Made by a program: the position numbers and the translations under genes | The notes under the pieces: model-generated | The model's input: only the letters and a program-made list of their open reading frames with translations | What the model was told of the DNA's origin: nothing | The model's database searches: none | Assembly: GCA_021160245.1 (NCBI GenBank) | Contig: JAGHCW010000088.1 | Span: 1 to 40,009, forward strand | Source: a bacterium | GTDB lineage: Bacteria > B130-G9 | Reading direction: 5' to 3' | Length of the DNA: 40,009 bases | Shown: positions 26,134 to 33,863 of the stretch, piece after piece | How positions within the stretch are numbered: the stretch's first letter is position 1 | Layout of the letters: each line of letters starts with the position of its first letter

Positions 26134-27684
26134 CTAATCGGCCTCAAGATCGAGCTCCCAGATGGTCTTATCCTCCGAGTTAGCTTGCGCCTCGATGTCA
26201 AACGAGCCGGTGAGGTGGAGCTGGGCTGCCTTATCCCTAATACTATCCCGGACGAATTCCCTGATCTCACCCATCGTTACAACGCCATCTTTCACGCCTA
26301 TGATGCCATAGCCGTCGGCCGCGCCATCGATCGCCTCAACTAGCGAGGTGGTGAAGAGGCCACCGCGCAACGCGGGATGCTCCATCGCCTTCTCATCGAT
26401 CGTTGCTCCTAGAAGATAAAGCCAACCTTCGGGCACGTCCCTCGGCTTGAACTTCCGGTTCATCGAAAGCCCCCTTCCTCCGGCAAGTCCGCCGGCGTGG
26501 CAGGCATCCGCGATGATCACGACGTTGTGGGGCTTGCGCTCTTTCAGCCAGAAACGAACGTCGCTCATCCTGAGGCCGGAGCCCGGTTTGTTCATATCCG
26601 AATCGTAGCAGGCAAGAAAGAGCTTCCGCTTGTCGAGCGGATCAGGATAGCCATGACCCGACCAATAGAGGACCAACAGCGAATCTTCCAGGTCCGGGCC
26701 ATATCTGATGGAGTTCTCCACATCGACCTTCGACGCCCGTTCGTTCACCAATAGAGTTATGCGGCTGTTGCTCCAGCCCTTATTCTCAAGCGATTTTGCA
26801 AAGGCCTTCGCGTCGCTGTCGGCGAATTTGAGATTTGTTAGGCCATGTTCACCCCCATGCTCATATCTCGAAAGCCCGACGATGATGGCGTATTTATCGC
26901 GAACATGTCCCGATCGTCGTCGCTGGGGAGGCGCTTCGACAGGCGCCTGCTCCTGGTTCTTCTTGTCCATCTCCATGCGTTCTTTTTCCAGCTTCAGCTT
27001 CTGGCGCTCAAGGTCCAACTTCTCTCGCTCCAACGCCAGCCGCTCCTCTTCTTGAGAACCTCGCTCATCGGCTGCTTGGGCTTCGGGTTGTGGCCGTTTT
27101 TCCCCTGCGGACGCCAGATGTTTGAGCTCATCATAGAGCCCGGTCTTATGGAGCAGATCGAGCGCTGTCTTTCCTCTTCTATCTTTGGCATTAACGTTCG
27201 CGCCATTCTTGATGAGAAGCTCGACTATGTCCGCGCGTTTCTTTGCGATTGCTTTGAATAGAATCGTCTGCCTATTCCTATCTCTAATCTCCAGGTTGGC
27301 GCCTTTTTCTACCAACAACTTGGCCATTTCAAGATTTCCGCGAGCTACTGCATAGTCCAACGGCGTATATTGCTTCGCATTTACAGCATTAACACTCGCG
27401 CCTCTTGCAATCAGCAGCTTGGCAGCCGCAAGCTGATCTTTGGATACGGCATAGTGCAGAGGGGTGGACCTATTGCCCCCGACTCCGTCAATAGCTGCGC
27501 CTTTCTTAAGTAAAGCCTCGATTTTCTGGGTGTCGCCTCGTTGCGCAGCTTTTAGCATCGCTTTTGTGCTGCTGCAGCCACAGAAGGAAAGCGCCGAAAG
27601 CGCAAGCAGCGCGATAAGTAATATGACGGATATTAACCTTGCCTTCATTGCTCCTGCTACCTCCTTCGGCCTCGTCGCCTTCAT
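26134..27684 (-). CDS. Lipoprotein with ankyrin repeats, charged coiled coil and C-terminal caspase-like (peptidase C14) domain
   Basis: Lipobox-like 'LSALSFCGCSS'. Ankyrin repeats 'NRSTPLHYAVSKDQLAAAKLLIARGASVNAVNAKQYTPLDYAVARGNLEMAKLLVEKGANLE'. Coiled coil 'EEERLALEREKLDLERQKLKLEKERMEMDKK'. Caspase His 'LYWSGHGYP' and Cys 'IIADACHAGG'. Confidence 0.92.
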   Translation of the reverse strand: MKATRPKEVAGAMKARLISVILLIALLALSALSFCGCSSTKAMLKAAQRGDTQKIEALLKKGAAIDGVGGNRSTPLHYAVSKDQLAAAKLLIARGASVNAVNAKQYTPLDYAVARGNLEMAKLLVEKGANLEIRDRNRQTILFKAIAKKRADIVELLIKNGANVNAKDRRGKTALDLLHKTGLYDELKHLASAGEKRPQPEAQAADERGSQEEERLALEREKLDLERQKLKLEKERMEMDKKNQEQAPVEAPPQRRRSGHVRDKYAIIVGLSRYEHGGEHGLTNLKFADSDAKAFAKSLENKGWSNSRITLLVNERASKVDVENSIRYGPDLEDSLLVLYWSGHGYPDPLDKRKLFLACYDSDMNKPGSGLRMSDVRFWLKERKPHNVVIIADACHAGGLAGGRGLSMNRKFKPRDVPEGWLYLLGATIDEKAMEHPALRGGLFTTSLVEAIDGAADGYGIIGVKDGVVTMGEIREFVRDSIRDKAAQLHLTGSFDIEAQANSEDKTIWELDLEAD

Positions 27685-28078: not shown

Positions 28079-28669
28079 CTAGCCCCTCCCGTTCGCCAGC
28101 GCGCGGCCCTCCGCAAAGGCCTTCAGGTTGAGATCGATGTGCTTTTTGGGCACGCGGGCCTTGAGCGCCTTGAGCCAGGTATCCTCGGAGAAGTCCAGAT
28201 TCTGAGACAGGACGCCCAGGAGCACCACGTTCATCGCCCGGGTATTGCCGAGCTTCTTGGCGACCGAGGTGGCGTCAACTGCGATGACCTTTGTGCCCTG
28301 CTCTTTCATCCTATCAAGAACGTCGTGGGGATACTCTTTGCCCAATATATTTAGGACTGGTGGGACGATCTCAGTCGTGTTGGTGATAACCTGTCCGCCA
28401 GGCTTTAAGTATTCTATCCACCTCTCGCTCTCCGCTTTCTCGAACGAGAGCAGGACATTGGCAGTGCCCTTCATAATGAGCGGCGAGTAAATCCGCTCCG
28501 CATAGCGCACGTGGCTTGAGACGATGCCGCCTCGTTGAGACATGCCATGTATTTCGCTTTTTTTGACGTCAAAGCCCATATTCATTGCGGCCTGGGAGAT
28601 GACCTCCGAGGCGAGCAGTATGCCTTGGCCACCGACGCCGACGAGCAGAACGTTTTTTGCTTCGTTCAT
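28079..28669 (-). CDS. iorB: Indolepyruvate ferredoxin oxidoreductase, beta subunit
   Basis: 'VLLVGVGGQGILLASEVISQAAMNMGFDVKKSEIHGMSQRGGIVSSHVRYAERIYSPLI'. Three bases from iorA. Confidence 0.92.
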   Translation of the reverse strand: MNEAKNVLLVGVGGQGILLASEVISQAAMNMGFDVKKSEIHGMSQRGGIVSSHVRYAERIYSPLIMKGTANVLLSFEKAESERWIEYLKPGGQVITNTTEIVPPVLNILGKEYPHDVLDRMKEQGTKVIAVDATSVAKKLGNTRAMNVVLLGVLSQNLDFSEDTWLKALKARVPKKHIDLNLKAFAEGRALANGRG

Positions 28670-28672
28670 CTT

Positions 28673-30529
28673 TTATTCTCCCTCAATATGAATTGCGGAA
28701 ACGGGACAGACCTGGGCACACATCGAGCATCCTATGCACATTGGCCGCTCTATCCTCGCCTTCTGCCGCATCTTGCCATCAACCTCAACCTGTACCGTGA
28801 TAATCGCCGGACACCCAAGCCCGAGGCATTTCTTGCAGCCGATACACTTCTCCTCATCGACAACAAAGGGCACGACTTTCGGCCCGAAACGCAGCCTATC
28901 AAGGATACACGCGCGCCTCGTGATGATGACTGATGGCTCGTTTGCCTCGATCTCCTCTTTTATCACCGTATCCAGATTCTTAAGGTCATAAGGATCGAGC
29001 GTTGTGACTCGCTTGACGCCGATAGATTTGCACAGAGCCTCGAGGTCGAGCTCGTGCGTTGGCTCATTGCGGATCGTCTTGCCCATTGCCGGATTCTGCT
29101 GGCCCCCTGTCATGGCCGTCGTGCGGTTGTCCATGATAATGACCGTAACATTGCCCTTGTTATAGACAACGTCGATAAGCCCCGTGATGCCCGAATGAAC
29201 GAACGTAGAATCACCAATCACCGCAACTACCGGCTCAAACTTGTCCGTCCCCTTTAAAGCCTTGTTCGCGCCCATAGCGTTCGTGATGCTGGCGCCCATG
29301 CAAATGCAGCTGTCCATCATCGAGAGTGGCGGCAGAACGCCAAGTGTATAGCAGCCAATGTCGCCGGTTACTATAGGCTTATACTTCTTGAGCACGTAGA
29401 ACGAGCCCCTGTGGGGGCAACCCGGACAAAGCGTCGGTGGCCGAGGCAGATCGAGAGCCCCGCCACCCGTTGCGGGCGCATCCTGCGTGAAGATCGAATG
29501 ATCGCTCGGAATCGCGACCAGCTTCTTCCTCGCCGCCTCTCGCAAGCTCTCGCGCAAAACGTCGGGTAAAAGCTCGCCCTCGCGGGTGAAAATCTCCTTG
29601 CCCAAGACATCAAAGCCCGCGGCCAGAAGCTGCTCCTCCATGAAAGGCTCCAGCTCCTCAAGCACGATCAGCTGATCGACCGTCTTGGAGAACTTCTCAA
29701 CCAACTTGAATGGAAGGGGATTTGTGAATCCCAGTTTCAGGAATGAGGCGCTCGGAATGACGTCTTTTGCGTACGAGTAAGCAATGCTGGCCGTAATGAT
29801 GCCAATCCTGGCGTCCGGCCCCGAGCCTTGCTCAATGTAATTCAGCGGAGTTTCATTGCTGAACTCCTCAAGTTGCTTCATCCGATTGAGCACCACCGTC
29901 CGTCGCTTCCGAGCGTTCGCCGGAATCACGACCCACTTCGTCCAATCGTGCTCAAAGCCCTTTATCTCATGCTCCTTGCGCTCGCCGATCGGGACAATCC
30001 CCTTCGAATGCGACACACGCGTCGTCGTCCGAAGCATTAGCGGCGTGCAGAACCGCTCGCTGATGTCAAAAGCCGCAATCGTCATCTCCCTCGCCTCGGC
30101 CGAATCGCACGGCTCCAACATAGGAATCAGCATGAACCGGGCAAGATAGCGGTTGTCCTGTTCATTCTGAGAGCTGTGCATCCCCGGCTCGTCGGCCGAG
30201 ACGAAGACAAAGCCCCCATTTACGCCTGTGTATGAGAAAGTTGACAGTGGGTCCATCGCTACGTTGACGCCAACGTGCTTCATGGCTGAAAGTGCTCTTG
30301 CCCCCGCCATTGAGGCGCCCTGCGCAACCTCCACGGCGACCTTCTCATTGGATGACCACTCGCAATATATCTCTTTGTAATGTCTTATCGCCTCGAGTAT
30401 CTCGGTGCTGGGTGTGCCCGGATAGGCAGTTGCAACATGAACACCAGCTTCCCAAGCGCCCCGGGCGATGGCCTCGTTGCCTGAAAGAAATAGATTTCCC
30501 ATGTACGCCTCAGATGATTTATGAATCAA
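28673..30529 (-). CDS. iorA: Indolepyruvate ferredoxin oxidoreductase, alpha subunit
   Basis: 'GNEAIARGAWEAGVHVATAYPGTPSTEI', 'CPGCPHRGSFYVL', TPP-binding 'GDIGCYTLG', two C-terminal 4Fe-4S motifs 'CIGCKKCLGLGCP' and 'CIGCSMCAQVCP'. Confidence 0.95.
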   Translation of the reverse strand: MIHKSSEAYMGNLFLSGNEAIARGAWEAGVHVATAYPGTPSTEILEAIRHYKEIYCEWSSNEKVAVEVAQGASMAGARALSAMKHVGVNVAMDPLSTFSYTGVNGGFVFVSADEPGMHSSQNEQDNRYLARFMLIPMLEPCDSAEAREMTIAAFDISERFCTPLMLRTTTRVSHSKGIVPIGERKEHEIKGFEHDWTKWVVIPANARKRRTVVLNRMKQLEEFSNETPLNYIEQGSGPDARIGIITASIAYSYAKDVIPSASFLKLGFTNPLPFKLVEKFSKTVDQLIVLEELEPFMEEQLLAAGFDVLGKEIFTREGELLPDVLRESLREAARKKLVAIPSDHSIFTQDAPATGGGALDLPRPPTLCPGCPHRGSFYVLKKYKPIVTGDIGCYTLGVLPPLSMMDSCICMGASITNAMGANKALKGTDKFEPVVAVIGDSTFVHSGITGLIDVVYNKGNVTVIIMDNRTTAMTGGQQNPAMGKTIRNEPTHELDLEALCKSIGVKRVTTLDPYDLKNLDTVIKEEIEANEPSVIITRRACILDRLRFGPKVVPFVVDEEKCIGCKKCLGLGCPAIITVQVEVDGKMRQKARIERPMCIGCSMCAQVCPVSAIHIEGE

Positions 30530-31550
30530 AGCTTATATCGGAAGTCAGAATACGTTCTAGTGCTGGGGGACGTTGAATTACTGTCTCGAGATGCTCAGCG
30601 AGCAGGACGCCGAGTGCTATCGAGTCGAGCTTGCTCTTGCGGGAATCCGCCCTCGAGACGATGAGTACGGGCTTTCTTGCCCCCACAATTAGGCCCGCAA
30701 AGCCCGCCCCTGCAAACATCGACAGCGACTTGCTCAGAAGATTGCCCTCCTCAATCGAGTTAACGATTAGGATGTCAGCATCGCCGGCCAGATCGCTATG
30801 GGCGCCGAGCAGCTCCCCCGATTCGTGTGTAACCGCCGCATCAAGTGTCAAAGGCCCATCAACGGTGCAGCCCCGTATCTGCCCGCGTTGCGACATCTTG
30901 GACAAGACTGCCGCCTCAATGGACATCGGCATCGCAGGATTGACCGTGTCGGCTGCAGACAGAATCGCGACTTTCGGCCTCTTTATGCCGATTGCGTTGG
31001 CCACAATGACGGCATTGGCGACTATCTGAACCTTCTCCTCGAGAGTCGGCGCTATGTTCATGCCAGGGTCAGACATGATCAATAGCTGCGGATGCGTCGC
31101 GATGTCATAGACTCCTACATGGCTCAGAATCCGCTTGGTTCTCAGGCCGATCTTCTTGTCCAAGACGGCCCGAAGCACCGCCGAGGTCTGCGCCTTGCCC
31201 TTCAACACCATGTCCGCCTCGTCAATGGAGGCGAGCCGAACGGCCTCCCTGGCCGCCGCGTTGGGGTCGCGCACGTCAAGGACAGTGTAATCGCTCTCGG
31301 CCATGTCCAAACTCGCCATCAGCGCCAGTATCTTCTCCCGCTTGCCGGTCAAGATAGCGCGAATTAGTCCTGCCTCTGTGGCATCTTGAACCGCTTCTAG
31401 TACGTGCTCATCCGCCGCCTCGGCCACGGTGAGTCTCTTTGGACCAATTCGCACTGCAAGTTCCTTGGCTCGCTTGTGCAAGACCTTAAAGTCGGCGATT
31501 CTACCGGGTATATCCGAGCCCTGAGCTTCGGTATCCATCAATATGTTCAT
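30519..31550 (-). CDS. ptb: Phosphate butyryltransferase/phosphotransacetylase-family protein
   Basis: 'ADMVLKGKAQTSAVLRAVLDKKIGLRTKRILSHVGVYDI', 'LLIMSDPGMNIAPTLEEKVQIVANAV', 'ILSAADTVNPAMPMSIEAAVLSKM'. Start placed at MNILMDT; the ORF track extends to 31598. Confidence 0.88.
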   Translation of the reverse strand: MNILMDTEAQGSDIPGRIADFKVLHKRAKELAVRIGPKRLTVAEAADEHVLEAVQDATEAGLIRAILTGKREKILALMASLDMAESDYTVLDVRDPNAAAREAVRLASIDEADMVLKGKAQTSAVLRAVLDKKIGLRTKRILSHVGVYDIATHPQLLIMSDPGMNIAPTLEEKVQIVANAVIVANAIGIKRPKVAILSAADTVNPAMPMSIEAAVLSKMSQRGQIRGCTVDGPLTLDAAVTHESGELLGAHSDLAGDADILIVNSIEEGNLLSKSLSMFAGAGFAGLIVGARKPVLIVSRADSRKSKLDSIALGVLLAEHLETVIQRPPALERILTSDISFDS

Positions 31551-31738
31551 CCTATCTTTTTGACCTAACTTAATTTCAGCTAATCGGGTATAAAACAAAA
31601 CTATAGCAAACTCATTGATGGTTCAAGCCAAAAAATCACAGGCGAAATCACAAATAAGCCTTACGCGCCTCAATGCTCAAGGCTTTTAGAATCTACATTT
31701 GAGATGAATGACCCGCGGATTGGGCCTCTTGCATAAGA

Positions 31739-32548
31739 CTATGGTTTGATGTTGAAGCGCGGATTGCGGCTGGCGATAAGGTCAGACTCATAGGCTCTTC
31801 GATTCTTGACCAGGCGCGCATCTGATTCTGGGCTGAATGCATGGATTTCTATCTGGATGTCTCTATATCCATGTCGCCATAGGTGCCTTGCTAGGCTTTT
31901 GCTGTCAGAATGGTCCAGATGTTTCCTGATTCTCCGTCGGAGATTGCTGGCCTCTCCTATATATAGATAGCCAGATGGATCAATGAAAATGTATATGCCA
32001 GGACATCTTGGTACAGTATTAGAAGCTTCCACAAGATCCCCCCCATGTAGGTAAAACACACGTCTCCCCCATGAATCAGTAAGGCGCGGAACGAGTTCCG
32101 GACGGAGCTTTCTAGTCTTGCGTAATTTCAGAGCTGCCTTCCGGACTATGTAACTGCTCACACCGGGAGCGACGCCCATCGCGATCCGATCGAATTCGGC
32201 TAAATGATCGGGGTCACATAGAATTCTGTCCACATTCAGATCATATCTGTCCTGCATGTGGCGGGCCGCAATCTCTGCCACATGTAGAATTTCGCTATAG
32301 CAAACACGGATTCTTCTGGTGGCGACAGCGCCGAGTTGACCGGTCTTTCTAAGATTCAGAAGCGCCCAGTTGAGTTCGACCGGCGCGGCATCGGGAAGCT
32401 CATTCAAACAACACTGAATGAACCGTCTGTTGAGTCGATTGCAAATCAGAACCTCATCAACGCTGTAGCCGTCATGTGCTAGTCTAAATGCTCGCTCAAC
32501 GACTGCCAGTAATTGTCTCTCTTCACAACCAGTTTGGTGGCAGTTCAT
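31739..32548 (-). CDS. GIY-YIG nuclease with N-terminal domain shared with the adjacent methyltransferase; putative restriction endonuclease
   Basis: 'PGIYIFIDPSGYLYIGEASNLRRRIRKHL' (GIY and YIG motifs plus catalytic-type Arg), 'AYESDLIASRNPRFNIKP' (catalytic-type Glu and Asn). Confidence 0.85.
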   Translation of the reverse strand: MNCHQTGCEERQLLAVVERAFRLAHDGYSVDEVLICNRLNRRFIQCCLNELPDAAPVELNWALLNLRKTGQLGAVATRRIRVCYSEILHVAEIAARHMQDRYDLNVDRILCDPDHLAEFDRIAMGVAPGVSSYIVRKAALKLRKTRKLRPELVPRLTDSWGRRVFYLHGGDLVEASNTVPRCPGIYIFIDPSGYLYIGEASNLRRRIRKHLDHSDSKSLARHLWRHGYRDIQIEIHAFSPESDARLVKNRRAYESDLIASRNPRFNIKP

Positions 32549-32567
32549 TTATTCTGGTCTTCCGCAT

Positions 32568-33863
32568 TCAGTCTTTCGATGGTCTTGAGTGAGATTTTCC
32601 TCTTTTACGAATGCTTAAAGCCGCCTTACGGAGGCGATAGCGGCGTTCTCCTGGTGCTTGTTTCTGAGCTATTTCATCAAATACTGCCTTGTAGGTTGGA
32701 TTGCACATAATTTGGTCAAGTGTCTTGCCGAGTTTTCGCTTGGCTTCCTCTTTGGCAGCTTCTGATGCCTCGATATATCTTGCATGCTTTATGGGTCTCC
32801 GCGGCTTCAGCTTATGCCGCAATCTTCCCGATTTTCGCTCAGCGAACAAAGCCAGATTCAGATCCTCCTCACTGGCGCCCGGCATCCGATTCCTGCATGC
32901 CTCAATATATCTTCTATTCAGTTCATCACAAATCACGACGTCATCTTCGCTGTATTCCCCTCTATATATCTCGAGAAATACCTCGGTCGCCAATTGACGC
33001 AATTCCCTTCTGAACTCGGCATCAATCCTGATCGCGCCATTCTTGATGCGCTCAAATGCCGACTCGGCGGTCGGCTCGCTGAACTCGATGCCGACCGACC
33101 GGCGATTCAATGCTCTTGCGACTGTGCAGGTCGTGCCGCTGCCGAGGAACGGGTCGAGGACGAGGTCGCCCTCGTTGGAGCAGGCCGAAATCACGCGACT
33201 CATGTAGGTCTCCGGGATTTGGTTGCGGTGCCCGGGCCGGCGCTCCTTATTTGTGCCCTGAATGCGGCCTAAGTATGGGCCATACCAAACGTCGAGCGGC
33301 ACACGCAGCCCGGGTCGGCGCGTTTTGCGGGTCCTTTTGTCATTGTAGAGCGACGCGCGGTCGGAGGGCACTAGTATCGCGTCGGGGTTCCAGATTCGCC
33401 TCTTGCGATCCTTCGCGAAGTAGAGCACATGGGCCTTCGACACGATGAAGTTCGAGTCGCGGCATTGGCCGAACCTGAAGTGCCAGATACACCAATTGAC
33501 CATGTGAAGTCCTCGGCTCTTCAGGTGCACCACGATCTCGGCGGCCCAGTCGTCAGGAATGTTGACCCATAATGCGCCGTGAGGCGCAAGGACGCGGATG
33601 CAGGCGTCGAGCCATTGGTACGTGAAATCCAAGTAGTCCTCGCGCCTCATATCGTCCTTCCAGTCCGCATATTTGACGTTCCAATTAAAGGGCGGATCGG
33701 CGAAGACGAGGTCGATGCTCTCTTCGGGCAGACCGGCCAGCACCTCCCGGCAATCGCCGACATAGACCTCCGTCTGGGGCTCATCGAGGCGGAATCTTGG
33801 GGCTGACTTGGTGTCGGCAAAAAGGCCTTTCTTTGGACTCACATTAGCTCCCATCTGGTGCAT
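32568..33863 (-). CDS. DNA methyltransferase (amino-MTase, beta-type motif order, m6A or m4C) with C-terminal extension homologous to the nuclease N-terminus
   Basis: 'VYVGDCREVLAGLPEESIDLVFADPPFNWNVKYADW' (motif IV first), then 'DLVLDPFLGSGTTCTVARALNRRSVGIEF' (motif I). C-terminal ~130 aa outside the MTase fold. Confidence 0.92.
   Translation of the reverse strand: MHQMGANVSPKKGLFADTKSAPRFRLDEPQTEVYVGDCREVLAGLPEESIDLVFADPPFNWNVKYADWKDDMRREDYLDFTYQWLDACIRVLAPHGALWVNIPDDWAAEIVVHLKSRGLHMVNWCIWHFRFGQCRDSNFIVSKAHVLYFAKDRKRRIWNPDAILVPSDRASLYNDKRTRKTRRPGLRVPLDVWYGPYLGRIQGTNKERRPGHRNQIPETYMSRVISACSNEGDLVLDPFLGSGTTCTVARALNRRSVGIEFSEPTAESAFERIKNGAIRIDAEFRRELRQLATEVFLEIYRGEYSEDDVVICDELNRRYIEACRNRMPGASEEDLNLALFAERKSGRLRHKLKPRRPIKHARYIEASEAAKEEAKRKLGKTLDQIMCNPTYKAVFDEIAQKQAPGERRYRLRKAALSIRKRGKSHSRPSKD

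Follow-up and report, generated by a model that had tools for sequence, protein, structure and literature searches.

A DNA adenine methyltransferase and a GIY-YIG nuclease that share a helical module: a candidate Type II-like restriction-modification pair and its apparent origin at a resident methylase gene

A long-standing question is how the endonuclease and the methyltransferase of a restriction-modification (R-M) system acquire a common target, the two being generally unrelated in sequence (PMC4081073). According to the same review of Type II systems, this dissimilarity holds for all R-M systems of that kind, from which an origin by gene association, not by duplication, was inferred. Contig JAGHCW010000088.1 of a bacterium of the B130-G9 lineage (assembly GCA_021160245.1), of which a stretch of 40,009 nucleotides was analysed (hereafter the window), contains a methyltransferase (MTase) and a nuclease that carry a homologous module. 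Since the pre-insertion state of the locus is preserved in sister genomes and the relatives of the nuclease are either exported or paired, the shared-target question becomes testable here.

The two genes are adjacent on the minus strand with a gap of 19 bp, the MTase gene (32568..33863, 431 aa) preceding that of the nuclease (31739..32548, 269 aa); the ORF coordinates thus agree with the layout given in an earlier note on this DNA. The same note claimed that the C-terminal extension of the MTase and the N-terminus of the nuclease are homologous, citing two blocks aligned by hand (23/47 and 21/45 identical residues), and both counts proved correct on recount. The homology itself was confirmed by BLASTP, which aligned residues 11-147 of the nuclease with residues 286-423 of the MTase (51/138 identical, 37%, one gap, E=2e-22), and by the local score of the two copies, which at 226 lies ~41 s.d. 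above that of shuffled sequences (mean 29.6, s.d. 4.8). The MTase copy of the module (residues 286-423) maps to 32595..33008 and the nuclease copy (residues 11-148) to 32105..32518, both on the minus strand.

Pfam recognised an N6_N4_Mtase domain on MTase residues 50-269 (1.3e-43) and a GIY-YIG domain on nuclease residues 183-263 (1.9e-8; 31760..32002, minus strand), and gave no match at E<=1 on the shared stretch of either protein. The RAMA domain, a known module of adenine MTases and nucleases, is represented in Pfam by a model of its own, which likewise produced no match to the module at E<=1. Nothing credible was returned for the module by sequence searches of PADLOC, NCBIfam, PHROGs and PDB. 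The top PDB sequence matches of the nuclease, ABC-type RNase L inhibitor chains, reached a whole-sequence E of ~5e-5, with independent E values of the single stretches from 0.76 to 2, and were therefore taken as chance.

Both active sites appear complete. In the MTase, motif IV (DPPF) lies ahead of motif I (DPFLGSGTT), an order that is a trait of beta-class N6-adenine MTases; together with the N6_N4_Mtase domain it places the enzyme in this class, and its nearest solved relatives are MboIIA, RsrI and CcrM. The nuclease keeps the catalytic residues of the GIY-YIG superfamily, as had been stated earlier: Y186, Y196, R206, H210, E254 and N266, the last one just past the end of the Pfam domain, correspond to the expected Tyr, Tyr, Arg, His/Tyr, Glu and Asn, and the fold is matched by Foldseek to UvrC GIY-YIG structures with a probability of 1.0. 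The same catalytic set in the same order is found in Eco29kI (Y49, Y76, R104, H108, E142, N154), where the R-H spacing of 4 (R104/H108) and the E-N spacing of 12 (E142/N154) are also those of the window nuclease (PMC1952068). Foldseek links the nuclease weakly to Eco29kI and to Hpy188I. The likeness to the Eco29kI family was not seen beyond the GIY-YIG core, as a phmmer search against PDB returned no Eco29kI chain; neither Eco29kI / Cfr42I nor Hpy188I, all Type IIP enzymes, gave a sequence match to the window nuclease, and their accessory domain differs from its own. No signal peptide was found on the window nuclease.

The fold of the module was approached by AlphaFold2 models built from alignments of homologues, which reached a pLDDT of 91.6 (nuclease) and 92.7 (MTase tail). 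In this comparison, which the earlier note had suggested, the MTase tail and the nuclease N-terminus were modelled as the same eight helices arranged in two repeats of four, those of the nuclease spanning residues 7-24, 30-35, 37-50 and 56-68 in the first repeat and 85-102, 106-111, 113-126 and 132-144 in the second. The two-fold repeat inside each copy is clear in the models and weak by sequence. In the nuclease copy, the fourth helix of each repeat closes with an Arg-Lys pair (R67 K68 in the first, R143 K144 in the second), R136 also lies in the eighth helix, and these five positions are Arg/Lys in 97-100% of 116 copies of the module. All five are retained in the window MTase copy, as are nearly all the other conserved positions of the module. 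Foldseek searches of PDB and of viral models matched the GIY-YIG part only, and not the module. Mainly because of the symmetric Arg-Lys motif pair, a nucleic-acid binder is favoured, and the module is most likely the DNA-binding part of both enzymes.

The distribution of the module was followed with the module itself as query, so that adjacency to an MTase was not selected for. Among 383 genomes, about one per bacterial family, it was found in the window genome and one other; within the family of that other genome it is present in 59 of 170 genomes, and in the class containing a Phycisphaerales MAG in 24 of 299. A scan of genome contigs yielded 28 loci, all 28 placed in Planctomycetota by their titles (Rhodopirellula, Aporhodopirellula, Mariniblastus, uncultured Pirellulaceae and others), and none when only the two window copies served as queries. 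None of the three other genomes of the window's phylum that were examined carries the module, and searches of plasmids and phages gave no relative. Thirteen diverse copies differed too much in alignment to yield search patterns, and the absence of the module elsewhere is bounded by the genome sampling and by the search patterns used. A generic helical domain, the alternative raised in the earlier note, is a poor description of a sequence essentially restricted to DNA MTases and GIY-YIG proteins and absent from all five libraries searched; the module is rather a recurrent family that the curated collections lack.

Three main forms can be distinguished. In form A, an adenine MTase, the module and a GIY-YIG domain are joined in a single chain of ~550-650 aa, in which the metal-binding Glu is gone in 58/58 cases (Gln in 45) and the His is mostly gone. 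The Eco29kI variant E142A no longer cleaves and still binds DNA (PMC1952068), and the crystallised inactive variant in 3mx4 is E142Q; by this analogy, the form A GIY-YIG domains look like non-cutting DNA-binding parts. Form B1 consists of the module and GIY-YIG (~250-280 aa) and is encoded immediately downstream of an A gene. Besides the window, 19 loci carry such a module-MTase/module-nuclease pair, all on the same strand with the MTase upstream and with the nuclease module starting 3-39 bp past the MTase stop, so that the pair postulated earlier does recur in other genomes. Catalytic residues are intact in 18/18 complete B1 nucleases, the C-terminal part being broken in L069. The paired copies co-diverge (Mantel r 0.64 for the modules and 0.41 when the MTase core is compared with the nuclease, p=0.0002). 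Form B2 comprises module-GIY-YIG proteins with an N-terminal extension; in each of the 24 that are complete, a strongly hydrophobic, signal-like core is seen by Kyte-Doolittle profile (not SignalP); an MTase within 1.5 kb was detectable for 0/24, a few of them lying near contig ends. These conserved, apparently exported nucleases of Pirellulaceae (L127-L154, L199) have no MTase neighbour and could act on incoming or environmental DNA, a role to be compared with that of SNIPE (PMC13190303).

Several other architectures were met. In 10 of the 19 Planctomycetota pairs (L186:1207-1563, L187:3492-3848, L197:3971-4324, L203:6534-6878 and others) the nuclease gene is followed directly by one for a ~118-aa protein with a conserved C-terminal PSCFC motif, which is also encoded beside some unpaired fused MTases; this protein has no credible Pfam match, its gene is absent from the window, and it is a possible third component of the pairs. 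Module-GIY-YIG proteins with an N-terminal HicB-like (ribbon-helix-helix) part, assigned by Pfam in L150, occur at L150:255-2259, L102:1731-2879 and L206:2119-3249, each near a D12-class MTase gene, the active-site Glu being retained in L150 and gone in L102 and L206. Module proteins of ~320 aa with a degenerate GIY-YIG region were found in L085 (4349-6780), L202, L204, L205 and L208; a gene of ~138 aa, its family unassigned, lies just upstream in L085, L202, L204 and L205, and an MTase gene (L085) or a D12 MTase fragment (L204) downstream. Finally, L198:2837-5944 encodes a 1036-aa protein (G910) with the module near its C-terminus, behind an extended N-terminal region that contains an NPPW motif, and with degenerate GIY-YIG residues.

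When the cytoplasmic nucleases with intact active sites are considered together, 20/20 lie beside a DNA MTase gene, i.e. the 18 of form B1, that of L150 and that of the window. The neighbour in L150 is of the D12 class, a family unrelated to the window MTase, which indicates that the nuclease follows MTase function and not one MTase family. This exported-or-paired pattern is what self-protection predicts and is the strongest evidence for R-M, although it is correlational and the related loci are not independent.

The main rival to DNA recognition is a docking role, in which the module would be a protein-protein interface that assembles the MTase with the nuclease, or nuclease dimers, target choice being left to the core of the MTase or to the GIY-YIG domain. 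The presence of the module on both partners, the co-divergence of the paired copies and the lack of a match to DNA-binding folds are all compatible with such an interface. The module is, however, also carried by the 24 exported nucleases with no MTase nearby, which argues that docking of an MTase is not its basic role, and its two symmetric invariant Arg-Lys pairs would suit a nucleic-acid surface; we hold this alternative to be unlikely.

The history of the locus can be read from sister genomes. Orthologues of the MTase, ~80% identical, are present in three of them (G001, G002 and G003; in G003 as two pieces at contig ends), all without the tail, and the homology of the window MTase to them stops near residue 279. 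The MTase core (residues 1-280; 33024..33863, minus strand; GC 59.5%, GC3 76.8%) is, by this comparison, the resident enzyme, vertically inherited in the phylum. In G001 and G003 the orthologous MTase gene lies directly beside the same ptb-iorA-iorB genes and no nuclease gene is present, i.e. the site is empty; in G002 the MTase gene is located elsewhere. The flanking genes for IorB, IorA and phosphate acetyl/butyryltransferase (28079..31598 of the window, minus strand) keep their order in G001 and G003, their proteins being 73-79% identical. Composition breaks sharply at the core/tail junction, the GC3 of the core being 77%, against 45% for the tail (GC 47.5% and GC3 45.2% for the module copy) and 44-51% for the nuclease gene. 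The empty site and this break delimit a putative acquired segment of ~1.3 kb (31739..33020), comprising the in-frame module fusion and the nuclease gene. Farther along the window, positions 26134-27684 encode ankyrin repeats and, C-terminal to them in the same protein, a caspase-like Peptidase_C14 domain (Pfam). The window genome (G000, 3.4 Mb) gave 26 matches to the MTase, many of them to other DNA MTases, and is seemingly an MTase-rich MAG; an MTase tree with other MTases of the host as outgroup had very long branches and was set aside.

As for the source of the segment, the window nuclease is up to 53% identical to the exported planctomycete nucleases, and the full-length nuclease tree groups it with B2 (100/99), a grouping with B1 being rejected (AU p=0.0009). 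In the module tree both window copies fall with the exported B2 nucleases (99/99), the MTase copy on a long branch, and all Planctomycetota MTase copies form a separate clade (100/98); that all MTase-borne copies go back to one origin is rejected weakly by the AU test (p=0.041). As the window groups with B2 and the B1 grouping is rejected, it is probable that the pair in the window and those in Planctomycetota had separate origins, the former from a signal-less nuclease of the exported lineage. A simple recent tandem duplication of the nuclease was also considered and is unlikely, the two copies being 36-37% identical, although a tree joining them is not rejected (p=0.33). The earlier proposal of a duplicated, transferable module hence holds in its second part; simple duplication in place does not agree with MTase orthologues that lack the tail, nor with a tail and nuclease that look like one foreign insert.

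This history also lends itself to another explanation, namely that the MTase copy of the module is a passive by-product of the insertion and that the two enzymes are functionally uncoupled. The arrangement is known from a single genome, the MTase orthologues do without the tail, and the long branch of the MTase copy would fit. Against this, the copy keeps the core residues of the module and is modelled with high confidence, and module-MTases recur with module-nucleases in 19 other loci; we regard a by-product as improbable.

Taken together, the pair is rather probably a two-gene Type II-like R-M system, formed by the addition of a nuclease and a probable DNA-binding module to a resident MTase, which upholds the candidate R-M assignment made earlier. 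Such a reading draws on the homologous modules of the same fold, the MTase beside every cytoplasmic nuclease with an intact active site and the signal-like, MTase-free (within 1.5 kb) character of the exported ones, the 19 other same-strand, MTase-first pairs with their co-diverging modules, the orthologous MTases that lack both tail and nuclease, the composition break, the Arg-Lys pairs conserved in 116 copies and the Glu loss in MTase-borne GIY-YIG domains. Counted against it are a module that matches no known DNA-binding fold, the existence of resident orthologues without the module and the long branch of the window MTase copy. In terms of classification, the side-by-side position of a DNA MTase gene and an endonuclease gene, with active-site residues intact, corresponds to Type II; the modules depart from the general observation, which is no definition, that R and M are unrelated in sequence (PMC4081073). 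Type IIG, with active nuclease and MTase in one polypeptide, does not apply to the two window genes, nor to the fused planctomycete forms with their lost Glu.

The proposed course of events would start from an orphan MTase beside the ior/ptb genes of the host lineage. A foreign segment would then have brought the nuclease and fused a nuclease-type copy of the module in frame to the MTase. Both enzymes would bind DNA via the same kind of eight-helix module and be placed alike on it; the MTase would methylate adenine in host sites and so protect the host, and the nuclease would cut DNA without the methyl mark. Module identity within pairs (0.41) is not above that between pairs (0.40), a result that lends no support to a single recognition surface common to both copies; the modules may therefore have in common how they bind and not exactly what they recognise, and it may still be the MTase core that determines which base is methylated.

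Two further alternatives to this R-M course deserve mention. The nuclease might be modification-dependent, the module reading methylated adenine and the enzyme cutting methylated DNA in the manner of Type IV, with the MTase as a regulator. Natural or engineered modification readers joined to GIY-YIG do exist (PMC12923530, PMC12707154), but a cytoplasmic cutter of m6A-DNA beside an active adenine MTase should be lethal, and all 20 cytoplasmic nucleases have an MTase neighbour, which makes this very improbable. An assembly artefact by which a piece of planctomycete DNA entered the host contig, conceivable in a MAG of 244 contigs with a composition break and close relatives without the insert, is scarcely credible, given that it needs two joins, one in frame within an ORF and one back into the conserved flank, and that no near-identical counterpart of the insert turned up among planctomycetes (nuclease best 53%).

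The Planctomycetota pairs (e.g. L187, L191, L072) are among the closest systems: as in the window, the MTase gene is upstream on the same strand, the module is on both proteins and the nuclease residues are intact. Unlike in the window, their MTase also bears a Glu-less GIY-YIG domain, the nuclease belongs to another clade, and the third, ~118-aa gene is often present. The exported planctomycete nucleases of Rhodopirellula and others are full-length relatives from the clade of the window nuclease, differing by their signal-like N-terminus and the lack of an MTase neighbour. MTase fusions of another kind were described in the 2006 survey of GIY-YIG proteins, where an Slx1-type GIY-YIG is fused to a COG4123 MTase in Lactobacillales; MTase and GIY-YIG are likewise fused or adjacent there, the MTase family is different, and no such common module was described (PMC1564403). 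SNIPE is comparable as a nuclease that combines GIY-YIG with a DNA-binding domain and avoids self-damage, in its case by location, and differs in being membrane-anchored, with DUF4041 and no MTase (PMC13190303); both it and CMoRE, recently described GIY-YIG defence proteins, are built differently from the window pair (PMC13190303, PMC12923530). No description of the module or of the pairs was found in the open-access literature. From sequence, the module is real and uncurated, and the arrangement appears to be a Type II-like R-M variant, of presumed function, with an unusually clear before/after comparison.

More tentatively, and with somewhat less than even confidence, the locus may represent a newborn R-M system, in which an orphan MTase gained a nuclease together with a nuclease-type DNA-binding module, the separate, parallel solution in Planctomycetota being an MTase with the module and a dead nuclease domain. 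If true, this would run counter to the rule by which R and M originate solely from unrelated genes that became associated. A lone methylase was apparently turned into a two-gene defence system by a module tail and an adjacent nuclease, and, since related pairs are found repeatedly in Planctomycetota, the sharing of one module is seemingly a way in which restriction systems can be built.
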